Both the position numbers and the translations under genes were made by a program. A stretch of DNA of 36,415 nt, from IMG/VR virus record IMGVR_UViG_3300033145_001475, positions 1 through 36,415 of that record, one strand, 5' to 3'. The DNA is from a virus. Positions 5,625-35,269 of this stretch are shown here, piece after piece. Each line of letters begins with the position of its first letter. The stretch's first letter is position 1. The notes beneath the pieces are model-generated. The model worked only from the letters and a program-made list of their open reading frames with translations, did not search any database and was not told where the DNA came from.

Positions 5625-5897
5625 ATGAGAAGATGCAGGGAATGCAAAAAATTAAAGCCACTGAAGAAGTTCAAAAAACACGGCAGTGTGCACTCGAAGA
5701 CGTGCACGGAATGTCTCGACAAGGGGTGCCGCAGGGTCGAGCTGTCCGAGACGCCGGCGAATGTCAGGATAAGGATATGCTGGTCGGGCGGGTACCATCG
5801 GGTCTATGTCCGCGATGGCGCTGGGTGGGAGGAGGTCTTCGCCTCGAGAATAAAACAAGAGGCCCTCGGGGTACTCTGTGAATGGTTCGGAATATGA
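5625..5897 (+). CDS. small protein with HNH-associated zinc finger
   Basis: 90 aa. The first 30 residues (CREC...CTEC) match the N-terminal Cys4 finger present in both HNH proteins of this genome (9671 and 32260), but no HNH core follows. The C-terminal half is a separate beta-rich segment with several Trp residues. It may be a remnant or a stand-alone version of the HNH DNA-recognition finger. The only Shine-Dalgarno-like sequence (AAGGA) lies about 17 bases upstream, longer than usual. It is followed after 34 bases by the AP2 protein. Confidence 0.65.
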   Translation: MRRCRECKKLKPLKKFKKHGSVHSKTCTECLDKGCRRVELSETPANVRIRICWSGGYHRVYVRDGAGWEEVFASRIKQEALGVLCEWFGI

Positions 5898-5931
5898 AAA
5901 ATTGTTTATAAGTGAAAGGAGTCAGAAAAAA

Positions 5932-6759
5932 ATGTTGTCGGAAAAAAATCTATCGAAAAAGTTCTTTACCCGGACGGGAGAAGAAATCTTCCGTATCGAA
6001 GAGGTAATCGAACAGCCCGAGGTGGTCCTGGTCAACCTCGATTCCAGATTGAAACTGCAGGTCAGGCTGGGGACGCCGGAAGCGAAGGAATTCATGCCTA
6101 TCGCAATGCCGCTGATAAAACCGGCGGCGGTACCTAAGATAAAAAAGGCCAAAAAGAAAGTGTCAGCTGCCGGCAAATCAGAACGCGGAAGGCCCGGGAG
6201 GAAGCCTGGGTGGGGAAGCTCGAAGTACTACGGAGTTTCGTTTCATAAACAGACCGGTGAGTGGAAAGCGAAAATCAACCGGAAAGACGACCGATGGTAC
6301 GGCGGCGAGTTCGAGACTGAAGAGCTGGCAGCAGCGAAGGTAGCCGAACACCTGGGCGATCACAAAGAAGCGGCCAGGCTGAGAAAACTTTCAAAGGTGC
6401 TGGCAGAGGTCAAACCAGGCCCGGTAAAGACCACCCAAAAAGGAAGCTCGAAATATTACGGGGTCTCATACGTTAAGACGACCGGAAGATGGACGGCGCA
6501 GATAAACAGAGGAGACCTTAAGTGGTTTAAATCTGGATTCGAATCGGAAGAGCTGGCGGCAGCGGCGGTACAGGAGAAACTCGGCAATAAAAAAGAGGCG
6601 GCCGAACTTCGAAAAAAGGACCGGACAAAAGATAAAATCGCCAAGCTGAGAGCCCCGATACTGGTGGGCAAGTTCATGTGTCACGAGTGCGGCGAGACGT
6701 ACGATAAGAAACCGGACAAATGCAATAAGTGTAATTCGGGTGCGGTTGAAAGAGTATAA
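5932..6759 (+). CDS. tandem AP2-domain DNA-binding protein with zinc ribbon
   Basis: About 275 aa from the ATG at 5932, which follows AAAGGAG; a GTG at 5878 would overlap the upstream gene. Two homologous blocks begin SSKYYGVS (near residues 96 and 174), each with a Gly-x-Trp-x-Ala-x-Ile core and an E(E/S)EELAAA-type helix, the AP2/ERF-like integrase-type DNA-binding fold. Just before the first block is an AT-hook-like Arg-Gly-Arg-Pro. The C-terminus has Cys-x2-Cys...Cys-x2-Cys (CHEC...CNKC), a zinc ribbon. In phages AP2 domains usually accompany HNH homing nucleases; no nuclease core is present here. It is probably a DNA-binding regulator or a domesticated remnant, placed immediately before the packaging genes. 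Confidence 0.82.
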   Translation: MLSEKNLSKKFFTRTGEEIFRIEEVIEQPEVVLVNLDSRLKLQVRLGTPEAKEFMPIAMPLIKPAAVPKIKKAKKKVSAAGKSERGRPGRKPGWGSSKYYGVSFHKQTGEWKAKINRKDDRWYGGEFETEELAAAKVAEHLGDHKEAARLRKLSKVLAEVKPGPVKTTQKGSSKYYGVSYVKTTGRWTAQINRGDLKWFKSGFESEELAAAAVQEKLGNKKEAAELRKKDRTKDKIAKLRAPILVGKFMCHECGETYDKKPDKCNKCNSGAVERV

Positions 6760-9467: not shown

Positions 9468-9674
9468 ATGTTCGGAAAAAAGAAAAAAAAGAAAAAAAAG
9501 AAAAGACCAGATGGACTCAAATGCCCCGCGTGCGGCTGCGCCGACTTTAGAACTATCGACGGCCGGCCGTTCGATACGGTAAAGACGGTCAATATTCCCG
9601 GCGCTGTGCGCAGGTATAAAATATGCCGCTACTGCGGAAAAACAATCCGGACGAGAGAGACGATTGATAAATGA
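9468..9674 (+). CDS. poly-lysine zinc-ribbon protein
   Basis: 68 aa. After three residues it has nine consecutive lysines, then CPACGC and a later CRYCG (near residues 52-56), a rubredoxin/zinc-ribbon fold. Com-like or Ogr-like small zinc proteins near packaging genes act as translational or transcriptional regulators in some phages, but nothing here proves that. The A-rich coding run (about 9478-9502) could slow or slip ribosomes. The stop overlaps the HNH start (ATGA). Confidence 0.72.
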   Translation: MFGKKKKKKKKKRPDGLKCPACGCADFRTIDGRPFDTVKTVNIPGAVRRYKICRYCGKTIRTRETIDK

Positions 9675-10243
9675 AAAAAAAGTGTTCGAAGTGTCATAAA
9701 TACAAAAGTTCGGAAGAATTTTACAAACACCCGACTAATCGAGATGGACTTAATGGTGAATGTAAAAAATGTCTCCGCAAATATCAACGTCTGTACCAAC
9801 AAAAAAATAAAACTTACTTAAAAGAGTGGGCTCGAATATATTGGAAAACTGAAAAAGCAAAAATAATCAAAAAAAACAGCATTCATAAATATCGAAAAAC
9901 GAAAACAGGCAGGGCTATAACAAGAAAAGTATTTCAGAAGTATCAGCGAACGGCAAAGGGGAAAGAAGCAAATCTCCGTGCCACATGCAAAAGACGCAGC
10001 ATATTTAAAAAGGCAAAAGAAGCCTTCACGCTAACTTTGGAGGAATGGTTGGAAACCCTGGAACATTTCAAAAATAGATGTGCTTATTGTGGGGAAAAAA
10101 GTAGAAAACTTGTGCACGAACATGTAATTCCATTAGAACGAGGTGGATGGCATACGAAGGTAAATGTCATTCCGGCATGTATAAGCTGTAATCGGTTGAA
10201 GGGTAGAAAAATTCCCTTTCTAGAATGGGAACCGCCAAAATAG
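9671..10243 (+). CDS. HNH endonuclease
   Basis: 190 aa. An N-terminal Cys4 finger (CSKC near 5-8, CKKC near 31-34) is followed by a long basic helical linker and a C-terminal HNH core: Cys137/Cys140, a His-x-His metal site at 149-151 (HEHVIP), Asn near 165-174, and Cys170/Cys173. The gene is clearly more A/T-rich than its neighbours, suggesting recent arrival. HNH proteins next to terminases are required for cos cleavage in some phages, but this form also resembles free-standing homing endonucleases. It is followed by a terminator that separates it from the head genes. Confidence 0.88.
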   Translation: MKKKCSKCHKYKSSEEFYKHPTNRDGLNGECKKCLRKYQRLYQQKNKTYLKEWARIYWKTEKAKIIKKNSIHKYRKTKTGRAITRKVFQKYQRTAKGKEANLRATCKRRSIFKKAKEAFTLTLEEWLETLEHFKNRCAYCGEKSRKLVHEHVIPLERGGWHTKVNVIPACISCNRLKGRKIPFLEWEPPK

Positions 10244-29097: not shown

Positions 29098-29564
29098 CAA
29101 ACGGCAATGGTGAGAACGGCGACGAGGCGACAGAGCGCAAACCGCCAATACAAAAGAAAACACAAACACTCGCGATAGGCGACCCACCTGTAATTTTTGA
29201 CCGGCATAGTTTAAAAACCGACGACACTCAATTGAACTATCCGCGCAAATTGATTGTTCGCTATGGGGGAAGCGAGGACGCCGACACACCCTTAAAATGT
29301 CCGGAAGTTTACGACAGCTCTTATCCTTGCGGACAATGGCCGAATAAGCGTGACTGGTGTGATAAATTTTGCGTTTATAACGGCGACTGTCCTGGCGGCG
29401 AGCTTGGTAAACGCTGCATTGGAACACTTATAAAAGTATGCGACCAGGGATACGGTTATTGTTGGTTTGCAAATACGACGGCCTGGTGTACCGGAACATC
29501 AAGCCCACTTTGTTGGTGTCATTATTCTTATGTCTACGATAATTGTCAAGATGAACCACACTAA
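29094..29564 (+). CDS. cysteine-rich tail-region protein
   Basis: About 156 aa from the ATG at 29094, which overlaps the preceding stop. The C-terminal two thirds contain about twelve Cys in a pattern (WCDKFC, DCPGG, RCIGTL, SPLCWCHY) suggesting several disulfides or metal sites, with many Tyr/Trp/Gly. The N-terminal 55 residues are charged and disordered-looking. No family recognised. A stable extracellular tail appendage is one possibility. It overlaps the next gene by about 14 bases. Confidence 0.62.
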   Translation: MTNGNGENGDEATERKPPIQKKTQTLAIGDPPVIFDRHSLKTDDTQLNYPRKLIVRYGGSEDADTPLKCPEVYDSSYPCGQWPNKRDWCDKFCVYNGDCPGGELGKRCIGTLIKVCDQGYGYCWFANTTAWCTGTSSPLCWCHYSYVYDNCQDEPH

Positions 29565-30038: not shown

Positions 30039-30560
30039 TTAGATTCCCCCCTGCTCTTTCTGAATTGCCGCCCAGTATCGCCGCTGAGCAGCTCTTTTTT
30101 TATCCCAGCGGTCGGCGTATCTTTTGCCGAGCAGGGCCCGGAGCTGTTTGTAGCGGCGCTGGTCTACCAATTTATGAAGTTCCATACTCTCCTCACATAC
30201 GGGCCAGACGATTTTTATCTGGCTTTCGACTAAGCGCTGCAGGCCCCGTTTCTCCTGGCGGGTCAAATATGCGCCGAGACTTTTTTTGGGCTTCTCACCG
30301 TTTGCCAGGGCAAATGATCTTCGATATTGGGCGTTTGTAATTAAGCGTTCCGGTGAGTATTGCCGGCTTTTCATTCTGGCTTTTGACCGGCCAACCTTAA
30401 TGTATGTTTTTTGCCGGGTAGAAGTCTGTTTTTTAACCTGCCAGGCGGATGTTTTTTGCCGGGAGGCACGGGTTCGGCGTCTCGGTCTCGCCGCCGTGGA
30501 GAGTTGATTTGCCAGGAGAATAAAAATAACCGCCAGAAAGATACATTTTTTACCGTTCAT
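30039..30560 (-). CDS. secreted basic protein of unknown function
   Basis: 173 aa on the minus strand. A classical Sec signal opens it: a lysine pair in the n-region, hydrophobic IFLAVIFILLANQL, then STA|A as a likely cleavage site near residue 23. The mature part is very basic (many Arg/Lys) and helical, with no transmembrane segment. AGAGGA precedes the ATG at a good distance. A candidate promoter lies upstream (TTGACA at 30622-30617 on the minus strand, weak -10). As the only secreted protein in the minus block it is a candidate lysogenic-conversion gene acting on the cell envelope. Confidence 0.68.
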   Translation of the reverse strand: MNGKKCIFLAVIFILLANQLSTAARPRRRTRASRQKTSAWQVKKQTSTRQKTYIKVGRSKARMKSRQYSPERLITNAQYRRSFALANGEKPKKSLGAYLTRQEKRGLQRLVESQIKIVWPVCEESMELHKLVDQRRYKQLRALLGKRYADRWDKKRAAQRRYWAAIQKEQGGI

Positions 30561-30678: not shown

Positions 30679-31500
30679 TTAATCGTTTTTTATATGTATA
30701 TATGTTTCCCAGAAAGAATAGTCAACTTGATTACCGAAGAAGAATTTTAGCCTGCTTGTTTCGACTTTATCTGTGCAGCTCAGTAACTCTCTATTATGAA
30801 ATGACGAAAAAGGAACATAATCATTGGAATTTTGAAGATGTTCTATCAGCTTGTTTTGACCCGACTGATATATTGCTGTAAGCGCAAGCAGGTCCCTGTG
30901 TGCTTTTTTAAGGTTTTCATTCGGGGGCATATCGAAGTTTTTAACGCGTGCATATAGCTCTTCAAACGCCTGTTGTGTTGTTAGGAGAACATTAAGAAAG
31001 CAAAAAGCGCTATAATTATCTTCTGCCCAGTACCTATTCTTGGCATTAAAGTCTATTTGCACTACCATATCCATCGTCATATAACTTTCATCTAACAGCA
31101 TCGCCGCGGCGATATAATCCAAATGTATATTCGGCGATATAAAACGGGTGGTTTTGGAAGAAGCCGCCGCTGTATAGCCTTTCAGCCAAAGTCCCGCCCC
31201 CCAGATATAATAAATAAAAAGAAACGCCGAAAATACTCCCAGCGTCCCCAGAAAAGTAACTCGAAACGCCGAGGGTGAAGTCCTCCAGAGCTTGGTTAAA
31301 AAGTTTTCTCCATTTTGTTTTCCCGGGCTTTTCTTTTTTCCCATCTGGTTTTCTTCCGTGATACCGCAAATCGGTTTTGGTTCTGCGGTCTTAGAAGTTA
31401 CTTTCAATAACTGGTTGCAGTTTTTGCATTTTATTGTTTTGCTGATATACTCTCGGGGGATGGAATAATTCGTGCGGCATTTAGGACATTGGAGCTTCAT
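30679..31500 (-). CDS. zinc-ribbon membrane protein
   Basis: About 273 aa from the ATG at 31500, chosen because GGGAGG precedes it on the minus strand; a longer frame to 31563 would overlap the upstream gene more. The N-terminus has the MJ0042-type zinc ribbon (CPKCRTNYSIP...CKNCNQLL, residues 4-29). A single transmembrane helix lies near 80-105 (TFLGTLGVFSAFLFIYYIW), and a soluble helical domain follows. Such zinc-ribbon/one-helix proteins are widespread in planctomycete and deltaproteobacterial genomes. Topology and role here are unknown; immunity or envelope modification are possible. Confidence 0.65.
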   Translation of the reverse strand: MKLQCPKCRTNYSIPREYISKTIKCKNCNQLLKVTSKTAEPKPICGITEENQMGKKKSPGKQNGENFLTKLWRTSPSAFRVTFLGTLGVFSAFLFIYYIWGAGLWLKGYTAAASSKTTRFISPNIHLDYIAAAMLLDESYMTMDMVVQIDFNAKNRYWAEDNYSAFCFLNVLLTTQQAFEELYARVKNFDMPPNENLKKAHRDLLALTAIYQSGQNKLIEHLQNSNDYVPFSSFHNRELLSCTDKVETSRLKFFFGNQVDYSFWETYIHIKND

Positions 31501-31501
31501 A

Positions 31502-31870
31502 TTAACCTCCCTTCTTTTTTGTCGTTTGTCGTTTTTTGGGAGTGATGAGTAGTCGGAACTCATCGAGGATTTTCTGTTCGTCCCGGCTTAAGACCCTGAA
31601 CACCGTGCCCGGCTGCTGCTTTTCGACTTCTGTCATCTCTTTAATCATTTCAAGGGCATTATGCAAGGAATTTTTTGGGGTGAGTTCAGAGGTAATTCCG
31701 GCGGCGAGGGCCATAAGCTCTTCTCTTTCTTCTGCACCGAGTTTGTCGAGTGCCAGGACGCCCGCAGAAAGCACCCTTTTTAATGAGCCACAGCGGACAA
31801 TTAATCGGTTGGCTATGGGCTGGGCTGTTTTTGTTAAAGCTCTTTCGATTGTTGTGGTATTTTTTGTCAT
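31502..31870 (-). CDS. candidate lysogeny-side regulator, possibly leaderless
   Basis: 122 aa, basic and helical. No canonical HTH is recognisable, but the helical segment LIVRCGSLKRVLSAGVLALDKL and a Lys-rich C-terminus could bind DNA. There is no Shine-Dalgarno: a -10-like TAAAAT (31883-31878 on the minus strand) lies only seven bases before the ATG, with TTGTGT 17 bases further upstream, so the transcript would start at or next to the AUG. Leaderless repressor mRNA is known for lambda CI. Its divergent placement opposite the rightward promoter also fits a repressor, but the protein itself does not show it. It ends one base before the zinc-ribbon membrane gene. Confidence 0.55.
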   Translation of the reverse strand: MTKNTTTIERALTKTAQPIANRLIVRCGSLKRVLSAGVLALDKLGAEEREELMALAAGITSELTPKNSLHNALEMIKEMTEVEKQQPGTVFRVLSRDEQKILDEFRLLITPKKRQTTKKKGG

Positions 31871-31877
31871 AAGTCAG

Positions 31878-31906
31878 ATTTTACAATTTTTTTTTCTAAC
31901 ACACAA
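31878..31906 (-). promoter_or_regulatory. leftward promoter candidate
   Basis: On the minus strand TTGTGT (31906-31901), 17-base spacer, TAAAAT (31883-31878). The start point would fall at 31870-31871, the first base of the ATG of the 122-aa gene. The -35 overlaps a GTGT/ACAC element. Confidence 0.5.
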
Positions 31907-31975
31907 GTAGTTGTTTTATAAATACTTATGGTGTATCAGCGTGTAATCTTACGTAATAATACACATAAAAGTGTT
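31901..31975 (+). promoter_or_regulatory. phased GTGT/ACAC operator-like array
   Basis: Elements ACACAA (31901), GTGTAT (31931), GTGTAA (31941), ACACAT (31961) and GTGTTG (31971) start at positions separated by multiples of 10 bp. The outer two overlap the -35 boxes of both divergent promoters. Confidence 0.55.
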
Positions 31976-32001
31976 GACAAACGCCACTAACTCCTTATAG
32001 T
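31974..32001 (+). promoter_or_regulatory. rightward promoter candidate
   Basis: TTGACA (31974-31979) perfect -35, 16-base spacer, TATAGT (31996-32001) -10 with one mismatch. It would drive the small ORFs, the HNH gene and perhaps the integrase. Confidence 0.7.
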
Positions 32002-32042
32002 TTATTCCGGCATTATACAGCGATATTAAAAGACTGGTTTTT

Positions 32043-32192
32043 ATGTCGGACAGAATATTCAATTCGTTCGGTTACTCAAAAAAAAGATTTTCAGTCGTCC
32101 GTGATACGAGACTGTTGGAAGCGCTTAATCGATGTTTTAACCCCATTGCCATCCAGGGCAATAAAGCGACTTTTACCGCAACCGGAGGCTGA
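32043..32192 (+). CDS. 49-aa small ORF in the Cro position
   Basis: The first ORF after the rightward promoter: ATG at 32043, stop at 32190-32192, 49 codons. The protein is basic, begins MSDRIFNSFGYSKKRFS and ends ATGG; no HTH visible. No clear Shine-Dalgarno precedes it. By position it would be the Cro-like partner of the divergent 122-aa gene. The stop overlaps the next tiny ORF (TGATG). Real expression is uncertain. Confidence 0.4.
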   Translation: MSDRIFNSFGYSKKRFSVVRDTRLLEALNRCFNPIAIQGNKATFTATGG

Positions 32193-32259: not shown

Positions 32260-32844
32260 ATGGACAGGCAATGCACTCTTTGCAAGCAGGTTAAGCCGTT
32301 AGACCGCTTCGGAATATATAAAAGGTCGAACACCCCTCGCAGCTGGTGTAAGGAGTGTTGCAGTAAAAAGGCGGACGAATATCGAAGGCTACACCCGGAA
32401 AAATTCAAGGCCTCAATCAAAAAATACCTCGAAAACCACAGGCAGGAAATACGGTTACGAAACAGAAACTGGCAGAAGGCTAATCCGGAAAAAGCCAGAT
32501 TGTCCTGCAGGAATTGGTACAGACGCAGAAGAAACAAAATAACAATGTGTCTGTATTCATCGCTAAGCCAGGCGTTTGGCCGTGGATTAGGGACCATGAA
32601 TATTTGGGAGATATTAGGTTATAGCTACGAAGAATTTACACGACACATCGAGGGCCGTTTCAAAGATGGTATGAACTGGGACAATCACGGTGAATGGGAA
32701 ATTGACCATATCATCCCCCAAAACTTTTTTGAGTTTCAAAGTTATAAAGATGTTGAATTTAAGATGTGCTGGCGGCTTGAGAACATACAGCCGCTTTGGA
32801 GGAGAGAAAATAAACAAAAAGGCAACAAGGCTCTTGTGGCGTAA
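32260..32844 (+). CDS. HNH endonuclease
   Basis: 194 aa. An N-terminal Cys4 finger (CTLC near 5-8, CKEC near 30-33) of the same type as at 9671 and 5625, a basic helical linker, then an HNH core with EWEIDHIIP near residues 147-155 and WRLENIQPL..REN..KGNK near 170-190, the Asn/His side of the ββα-metal fold. It sits between the divergent control region and the integrase, an unusual position for a packaging-associated HNH. A mobile homing-type nuclease is therefore likely. The ATG follows AAAAAGGGC. Confidence 0.82.
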   Translation: MDRQCTLCKQVKPLDRFGIYKRSNTPRSWCKECCSKKADEYRRLHPEKFKASIKKYLENHRQEIRLRNRNWQKANPEKARLSCRNWYRRRRNKITMCLYSSLSQAFGRGLGTMNIWEILGYSYEEFTRHIEGRFKDGMNWDNHGEWEIDHIIPQNFFEFQSYKDVEFKMCWRLENIQPLWRRENKQKGNKALVA

Positions 32845-32976: not shown

Positions 32977-33918
32977 ATGAGTGGACAGTTGGCAAAGCCA
33001 CAACATTTAAGCGAACTGGTAAAGCTGTATTTGAGTCGCAATAAGAGGATTGAGCCGTCAACAGTGTGTATGACGAGACTTGCCTTTAGGTACCTGGTAG
33101 AGGCGGTTGGCGACCTTGACATCACGGATTTCGATAAGAACACGGCCGAGGAATATCAATCGGGTCTAATCGACCGGGGTCTTAGTAAAATATCGGCGAA
33201 TGACTACTGTAAGATGGTGTCACCGGTGTTTTCATGGGCGGTTGGTTGTAGCTGGATTGAGAAGAACCCGTTTTTCGGTCTGAAAAAGTTTAAGGTCACA
33301 CCATCAGCGGTAAGGTTTTATCGGCAGGATGAACTACAGAGACTCCTGAAAGTGGCCGATAAACTCTGGACGGGCCGGATACTTATGGGCCTTATGATGA
33401 GAACGGGAGAAGTCCTTAATACTACCGTTGATGATGTAGACTTTGAGCAGGGATTCGTTTCGGTATCGGCCAAGAAAGACGGGCCCTATACCTGGCGGTT
33501 CGAGCCGAAGGATCACGACCGGAGAATATTGCCTTTGTACCCGCAACTTGCTACTGTACTATTGAGGCGATTCGATGAACTGCCACAGGGACAGCCCTAT
33601 TTGTGGTTGACTAAAGAGCGGTACTCTTATTTAATGGTTCACAAAGATAAAATGTCGGACCGTATGAAAAAGCGGCCGGACAACAACTTTGATAGAAACT
33701 GGAAGGCTTTGACCAGCAGAGCGTTTGTGAACGGAAGTTTTGGAATGTTACGCAAAACAGGACTAACTATGCTTTCGGGTGATATACCACTCCAGGAGGT
33801 ACAGACCTTCGGCGGTCATTCGAGCATAGAAACAACAAGGAGATATTTAGGTGTTCGCAGAGACGTATTGACCCGAGCGGGTGACGTATTAAACCGGGGC
33901 GTGGCGCAGTTTGGATAG
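32977..33918 (+). CDS. int: tyrosine site-specific integrase
   Basis: 313 aa from the ATG at 32977, which follows a full AAAGGAGGTGA Shine-Dalgarno. An N-terminal SAM-like core-binding domain (residues 10-95) is followed by the catalytic domain: Arg142 (MMRTGE), basic/Lys block near 166-183, Arg259 (GMLRKT), His281 (FGGHSSIETT) and nucleophile Tyr290 (RRYL). The usual His of the HxxR box is Gly256, a tolerated variation in this family. It integrates and excises the phage genome. Tandem terminators follow, then a tRNA gene that could serve as attachment site. Confidence 0.92.
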   Translation: MSGQLAKPQHLSELVKLYLSRNKRIEPSTVCMTRLAFRYLVEAVGDLDITDFDKNTAEEYQSGLIDRGLSKISANDYCKMVSPVFSWAVGCSWIEKNPFFGLKKFKVTPSAVRFYRQDELQRLLKVADKLWTGRILMGLMMRTGEVLNTTVDDVDFEQGFVSVSAKKDGPYTWRFEPKDHDRRILPLYPQLATVLLRRFDELPQGQPYLWLTKERYSYLMVHKDKMSDRMKKRPDNNFDRNWKALTSRAFVNGSFGMLRKTGLTMLSGDIPLQEVQTFGGHSSIETTRRYLGVRRDVLTRAGDVLNRGVAQFG

Positions 33919-34282: not shown

Positions 34283-34356
34283 CGCAGGGTAGAGCAGTCC
34301 GGCAGCTCATCGGGCCCATAACCCGAAGGTCGCAGGTTCGAATCCTGCCCCTGCTA
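34283..34356 (+). tRNA. initiator-type tRNA-Met (CAT), with unusual position 33
   Basis: 74 nt without encoded CCA. Acceptor CGCAGGG pairs with CCCTGCT from pair 2 on, leaving a C·U mismatch at 1-72. The D stem is GAGC/GCTC (A11-U24). The anticodon stem TCGGG/CCCGA has three G-C pairs and the loop CCCATAA carries anticodon CAT. The T stem is GCAGG/CCTGC with TTCGAAT. The 1-72 mismatch, A11-U24 and GGG/CCC stem are hallmarks of bacterial initiator tRNA. Position 33 is C, not the near-universal U. It could be a working phage initiator tRNA or a captured attachment-site tRNA. Confidence 0.88.
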
Positions 34357-34357
34357 T

Positions 34358-34371
34358 TTTGAAAAGTTAAT
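34358..34371 (+). repeat. direct repeat flanking the tRNA (right copy)
   Basis: TTTGAAAAGTTAAT, one base after the tRNA; 13 of 14 bases match the copy at 34267-34280. Confidence 0.6.
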
Positions 34372-35052: not shown

Positions 35053-35269
35053 CCTATCCTTTACTGCGGAAGAAATTCACGAAGCAATACCGCACAACAT
35101 AGATTTTTTGCAATCATTCGGGCTATCACCGTATGAAATTTACGAGCAGTTTATCGACGAGCATGACGAGTACTGGGGCATCGTAATCTGGGGCGGACGG
35201 ATGTTCACTGACGAAAGCGATGGCTACTGGAATATGGTAGAGACGGGAATTCGGGGCAAGGATTTATGA
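35033..35269 (+). CDS. acidic 78-aa protein of unknown function
   Basis: A strongly acidic small protein (many Asp/Glu, several Trp/Tyr) whose start overlaps the lysozyme end by 20 bases with GGAAG upstream. Its surface charge is DNA-mimic-like, which in phages is often linked to inhibition of host DNA-binding proteins, but no specific family is recognised. Its stop overlaps the next gene. Confidence 0.6.
   Translation: MDESENNLSFTAEEIHEAIPHNIDFLQSFGLSPYEIYEQFIDEHDEYWGIVIWGGRMFTDESDGYWNMVETGIRGKDL

Follow-up and report, generated by a model that had tools for sequence, protein, structure and literature searches.

A divergent promoter region with a predicted leaderless gene and candidate operators in a probable temperate phage of uncultured bacteria

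The window analyzed here, that is, the whole stretch of 36,415 nucleotides, comprises the first 36,415 bases of the 42,822-base IMG/VR record IMGVR_UViG_3300033145_001475. PHROG and Pfam scans revealed tailed-phage genes in the window (terminase, portal, capsid-protease and head closure) and two tyrosine recombinases encoded in the phage record. Candidatus Omnitrophota accounted for 9 of the best 13 terminase matches in a one-genome-per-species collection (33-38% identity), and Candidatus Omnitrophota is therefore the likely host. Nearly all genes of the window run rightward, the exception being three leftward genes that extend from 31870 down to 30039; the region 31871-32042 is thus the only divergent junction, as a sequence-only reading of this DNA had claimed. 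The features on its two sides are listed in Table 1.

Table 1. Genes and predicted control features around the divergent region, in window coordinates
Feature	Position	Strand	Details
173-aa basic protein, signal-peptide-like N-terminus	30039..30560	-	Third leftward gene; ORF list
273-aa zinc-ribbon protein, one hydrophobic stretch	30679..31500	-	Zn_ribbon_4 8e-5, MJ0042_CXXC 2e-4
122-aa gene	31502..31870	-	First in leftward operon; pI 9.8 (basic); founder of 5-member family
Leftward promoter (predicted)	31878..31906	-	-35 TTGTGT 31906-31901, 17 nt, -10 TAAAAT 31883-31878, 7 nt, ATG 31870
GTGT/ACAC elements	31901..31974	.	Starts 31901, 31931, 31941, 31961, 31971; 10-bp register
Block CRTAA-N4-TTAT-N9-ACTTG	31904..31930	-	Present in 5/5
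Dyad ATAAATACTTAT, candidate operator adjoining leftward -35	31918..31929	.	TAA-N4-TTA symmetry in 5/5
TACGTAA (TACRTAA element)	31949..31955	-	One copy per inter-promoter region in 5/5
Rightward promoter (predicted)	31974..32001	+	TTGACA 31974-31979, 16 nt, TATAGT 31996-32001
49-aa ORF	32043..32192	+	No Shine-Dalgarno; codon score -0.02; coding status uncertain; slot of relatives' RHH-like gene
194-aa endonuclease VII / HNH-like protein	32260..32844	+	phrog_1035 8e-18
Tyrosine integrase	32977..33918	+	Shine-Dalgarno GGAGG; Phage_integrase 5.6e-14; phrog_1 6.6e-35

Codon statistics identified the 122-aa ORF as coding, its score of 0.19 falling in the range of sense frames and exceeding the 95th percentile for wrong ones; an antisense ORF at 31536-31910 was rejected as a gene with a codon score of -0.23. 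The ATG of the 273-aa gene lies just past the stop codon of the 122-aa gene, within the end of which its Shine-Dalgarno sequence GGGAGG sits. The 173-aa protein had no family match in Pfam or PHROGs, and its gene contains a 15-base direct repeat (window 30404 and 30449). Direct homology searches with the 122-aa protein gave no match in the viral_contigs, genome_contigs, phages and plasmids collections, nor in PDB, Pfam, PHROGs, NCBIfam or PADLOC, and comparison with 384 Omnitrophota-phylum and 392 Planctomycetota-phylum genomes gave chance-level matches only.

Relatives were reached using conserved genes as baits. Terminase and then capsid led to G809, and the wHTH gene at 35266 led to L208 (IMGVR_UViG_3300029813_000414) and L210 (IMGVR_UViG_3300035698_017115), whereas the integrase and a tail protein as baits gave no matches or distant ones only. 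A profile of three sequences (window, L208 and L210) then found L217 (IMGVR_UViG_3300012964_000031) and L218 (IMGVR_UViG_3300009149_008119), and gave no match in the 384 genomes. These four distant IMG/VR phages carry homologues of the 122-aa protein with 31-53% identity and, judged by these sequences, the gene is a member of a protein family not recognised in the databases searched. In L208 and L210 the leftward homologue faces a rightward small gene and an integrase, and L218 has the divergent layout of the window, likewise with an integrase; the integrases at this place are 36-37% identical to the window's in L208 and L210 and 30% identical in L218. In L217, which keeps the 122-aa gene and the promoter block, the stretch that was retrieved contained no homologue of the window integrase. 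The family gene is thus placed opposite the integrase operon in the window and three relatives. This comparison, which the sequence-only reading had proposed as a check, showed that the divergent promoter layout recurs and that the family gene heads the leftward operon in all five regions.

The predicted leftward promoter and the leaderless 122-aa gene had also been proposed from the sequence, and the hexamers, their spacing and the missing Shine-Dalgarno sequence were found as described. Scored alone, the promoter matched 3/6 positions at -35 and 5/6 at -10 (8/12 in total), and about 1.7 sites of this quality are expected by chance per 186 bp; judged in isolation, it is not significant. Since it stands at chance level alone, the argument for its reality comes from the relatives. 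In all five sequences ACTTG lies at -37 to -39 from the ATG (0 of 2000 shuffles) and is followed by a spacer of 16-17 nt and then by a TAAAAT-like -10 element placed 7-9 nt before the ATG. The Shine-Dalgarno sequence is absent before the family gene in the window and the four relatives, in contrast to an SD-like core in 23 of the 33 long ATG ORFs of the window and in roughly 60-75% of the long genes in these phages. Leftward transcription is predicted to start at the ATG at 31870 or at most 2 nt from it, which would yield a leaderless mRNA; the comparison gives strong support to a leftward promoter and a leaderless-type start.

Upstream of ACTTG, the 30 nt of the five sequences share 8 identical columns compared to 0.6 in shuffles (0 of 5000), a result that comes from five sequences only, related by descent. 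Among 218 fetched loci, the block pattern occurred only before 122-aa family genes. The TACRTAA element lies 47, 47, 24, 24 and 24 bp from ACTTG in the five regions and, because some shared 7-mer of this kind was present in 25 of 300 shuffled sets, it is only suggestive as a conserved element. In the window, TACGTAA forms the centre of an imperfect 24-bp palindrome (31941-31964) with 10 of 12 pairs, which was equalled in 105 of 1000 shuffles. The -35 boxes are 70-71 bp apart in some of the five regions and 58-60 bp apart in the others, forming two classes that differ by roughly one turn of the helix. From this conservation, the dyad and the TACRTAA core are the candidate operators.

The sequence-only reading had assigned the operator role to five GTGT/ACAC elements, said to lie on one helical face and to overlap both -35 boxes at their outer ends. 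Their positions were correct, with a further ACAC at 31899 missing from its list, and the phasing is unusual: five same-phase GTGT/ACAC elements were obtained in 0 of 5000 dinucleotide shuffles, and five in-phase copies of any 4-mer occurred in 0.48% of shuffles. B-DNA has 10.5 bp per turn, at which the strict 10-bp step of the ladder accumulates a rotation of about 120 degrees along 70 bp, so that the description as one face is loose; the outermost GTGT shares just one base with the rightward -35. As operators, the elements were not borne out. They are absent from the matching places in the four relatives, in whose control regions no general 10-bp periodicity was found, and GTGT/ACAC was for this reason rejected as a conserved operator. 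In sum, the relatives support the leftward promoter with its leaderless-type start, whereas for the operator they point to the dyad, a better candidate than the elements first proposed.

On the other side of the junction, the rightward promoter named in the sequence-only reading held up with a score of 11/12, which just one other site reaches when both strands of the whole window are considered, and its -35 element is kept in the relatives as TTGACA, TTGACG or TCGACA. In L208, L210 and L218 the rightward side opens, shortly before the integrase, with a gene for a protein of 62-86 aa; the three proteins are homologous and show an RHH-like strand-helix-helix pattern by eye only; no RHH match was obtained for them in Pfam, PHROGs or PDB, and the 49-aa ORF of the window has no recognisable homology to them. 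A ParD profile, used as an RHH yardstick, gave no usable match in Omnitrophota genomes. L210 encodes a 135-aa protein (L210:6602-7009) between the RHH-like gene and the integrase, part of which resembles the C-terminal domain of the alpha subunit of RNA polymerase (Pfam 2.4e-4, a match that does not reach the curated cut-off). The endonuclease VII/HNH-like protein of phrog_1035 is one of two in the genome (window 9671-10243 and 32260-32844), and another HNH protein is encoded at window 5878-6759. A tRNA-Met gene (window 34283-34358) lies between the integrase and the next gene, and a tRNA is found 1.2-1.5 kb before the same wHTH gene in L212 and L214 (tRNA-Met) and in L210 (tRNA-Phe). Less than 0.75 kb of L212 and L214 lies on the upstream side of the tRNA, so the tRNA may mark the attachment site.

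The genes on both sides belong to a module at 30.0-35.2 kb. G809, a colinear relative, keeps homologues of the genes at 29467 and 35266 together with the radical SAM and 250-aa recombinase genes, and unrelated rightward genes replace the whole module in it. Because this colinear relative has other genes in its place, the module is exchangeable. It was also absent from the relatives found via terminase, in a search in which the positive control was detected. A mobile insertion at 30.0-35.3 kb marked by flanking direct repeats was rejected, as no repeats were found. The same slot of G809 holds a gene for a small protein (L204:8859-9233) that is HTH-regulator-like by eye (phrog_4441, E 0.017). 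The second tyrosine recombinase (L002:10846-11598, record 40845-41597) is conserved at 43-57% in the colinear relatives (G809, L208, L209, L213 and L214), whereas the integrase at 32977 lies inside the exchangeable module; a radical SAM protein (L002:9386-10147) is 44-65% conserved in nearly all relatives of the phage group.

The five family proteins are all basic with a positively charged C-terminal tail, and the C-terminal half of the 122-aa protein is not conserved in L210. An AlphaFold model from the five sequences reached pLDDT 62 and pTM 0.24; predictions from one sequence or from five are too weak for use, and a Foldseek search with the five-sequence model gave no match. With low confidence, the family protein is probably helical. 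The sequence-only reading had argued for a 122-aa repressor from the lack of any classical HTH protein elsewhere, an argument that fails because a Fis-type HTH protein of 101 aa is encoded at 1383-1688 (Pfam HTH_8, 4e-11). A MerR-like HTH within the terminase small subunit, a DnaD-like replication initiator and a ParB-like protein are also encoded.

Together, sequence comparison establishes the predicted promoters, the missing Shine-Dalgarno sequence, the conserved block and the gene arrangement. Our best explanation, which we consider fairly probable as a whole, is that the source is a temperate tailed phage whose control region is a lysis-lysogeny-type switch with a leaderless leftward gene, the choice being set by a protein. 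Two back-to-back promoters, with 58-71 bp between their -35 boxes across the five regions, would drive the two sides. From the rightward promoter, on the lytic or excision side, the integrase would be transcribed together with a short gene ahead of it. The leftward promoter, to which we assign a presumed prophage-side role, would give a leaderless mRNA starting no more than 2 nt from the 122-aa ATG and running on into the genes for the zinc-ribbon membrane protein and the secreted basic protein; the relatives carry other small membrane or secreted proteins downstream of the homologue, and in all five the family gene is followed by one for a small protein bearing a hydrophobic or signal-like segment. 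The active side would be selected by a protein that binds two sites, the dyad adjoining the leftward -35 and the TACRTAA core. Against this explanation stand the leftward -35, with its 3/6 match, the absence of the module from G809, the lack of conservation of the C-terminal half of the protein in L210, and the small basis of the block, five sequences with common descent. The first candidate for the regulator is the 122-aa protein, present in all five regions and basic with a positive tail, and the second is the RHH-like rightward protein. A role of the 122-aa family protein, which is basic and probably helical, as the DNA-binding regulator is quite possible, if just short of probable, and a repressor function is plausible; against it, no DNA-binding fold was recognised in the family in Pfam, PHROGs, NCBIfam or PDB.

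In the main rival account, the regulator is instead the product of the first rightward gene, in L208, L210 and L218 an RHH-like protein of 62-86 aa, which would act on both promoters like Cro, Cox or Apl, with the 122-aa gene as a regulated passenger. The three homologous proteins in that slot with their RHH-like pattern by eye would fit such a role, and direct repeats at 10-11 bp spacing like those bound by Apl would suit the 10-bp GTGT ladder of the window. However, the ladder is not conserved, the proteins have no RHH match in the three databases, and the 49-aa ORF of the window is non-homologous, lacks a Shine-Dalgarno sequence and has a weak codon score while the leftward block is still fully kept; we regard this account as possible but on the improbable side. 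Alternatively, though this is unlikely, the 122-aa gene could head a prophage-expressed accessory operon without being a regulator itself; such an operon would serve superinfection exclusion or modify the host, under the control of a factor whose gene lies elsewhere in the phage or in the host, for instance the Fis-type HTH protein. Membrane or secreted-protein genes always follow the family gene, the module is missing from G809 and the HTH_8 gene is present, all of which such an operon would accommodate; yet these downstream genes differ among relatives whereas the 122-aa family and the promoter block are constant, and a position opposite the integrase operon is where lysogeny regulators are usually found. 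Chance in an AT-rich gap as the origin of both ladder and divergent promoters is very improbable, being possible for the ladder and disfavoured for the promoters: the leftward promoter alone and the palindrome are compatible with chance, but neither the block shared by five relatives nor the -35 position was reproduced in shuffles.

By analogy, the arrangement would work like a lambda-type switch, although by its proteins it is not of the lambda family. The lambda PRM-cI-rexA-rexB/PR-cro region and the immB region of PY54 also have a dyad flanked by divergent early promoters, and here divergent promoters with putative operators between them, as suggested by conservation, are likewise present. 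In phage PY54, leaderless cI and cro mRNAs have been mapped experimentally (PMC4488713). In both phages, accessory or membrane genes lie behind a prophage-side leaderless gene, and the leftward cI-rexA-rexB of lambda resembles the 122-aa gene (leaderless by prediction) with its membrane and secreted-protein genes. Unlike these phages, the window has no HTH protein of CI or Cro type on the two sides (the 122-aa and 49-aa proteins and the small proteins of the relatives were searched), its leftward protein is basic with no recognised fold, and its integrase lies in the opposing rightward operon. Apl of phage 186 is both a directionality factor and a switch regulator, and its binding sites between the early promoters are direct repeats spaced 10-11 bp apart (PMC7498355). 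These repeats may be the closest known parallel for the GTGT ladder: in the Apl/Cox switch of 186/P2-type phages the regulator sites also lie in about 10-bp register between opposing promoters, with a control gene linked to the integrase, and in the relatives a small gene beside the integrase, without a family match, may correspond to an RDF gene. However, the promoters of 186 are face to face and those of the window back to back, no Apl or Cox homologue was found, and the ladder is confined to the window without recurrence in the relatives. The integration-dependent immunity of mycobacteriophage BPs likewise has an unusual repressor near the integrase and palindromic operators (PMC4557955), but no sign of attP was seen inside the 122-aa gene, and the proteins were unrelated in the searches made.

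A further reading, tentative and in our judgment rather doubtful, is that the 122-aa family represents a structurally new kind of lysogeny repressor in phages of uncultured PVC-type bacteria: small, basic and helical, lacking a classical HTH and translated from a leaderless mRNA, it would bind the ATAA-N4-TTAT dyad by its own promoter and repress the integrase or lytic side. To our knowledge, few host phyla have provided examples of lysogeny control. The 122-aa family and its conserved region offer a comparatively defined switch with candidate operators and a small orphan protein family in phages apparently of uncultured bacteria, and leaderless prophage-side genes seem to recur far from lambda. 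The region is small enough to be rebuilt with reporters, which would make a repressor class outside the HTH, RHH and integrase-like folds directly testable.
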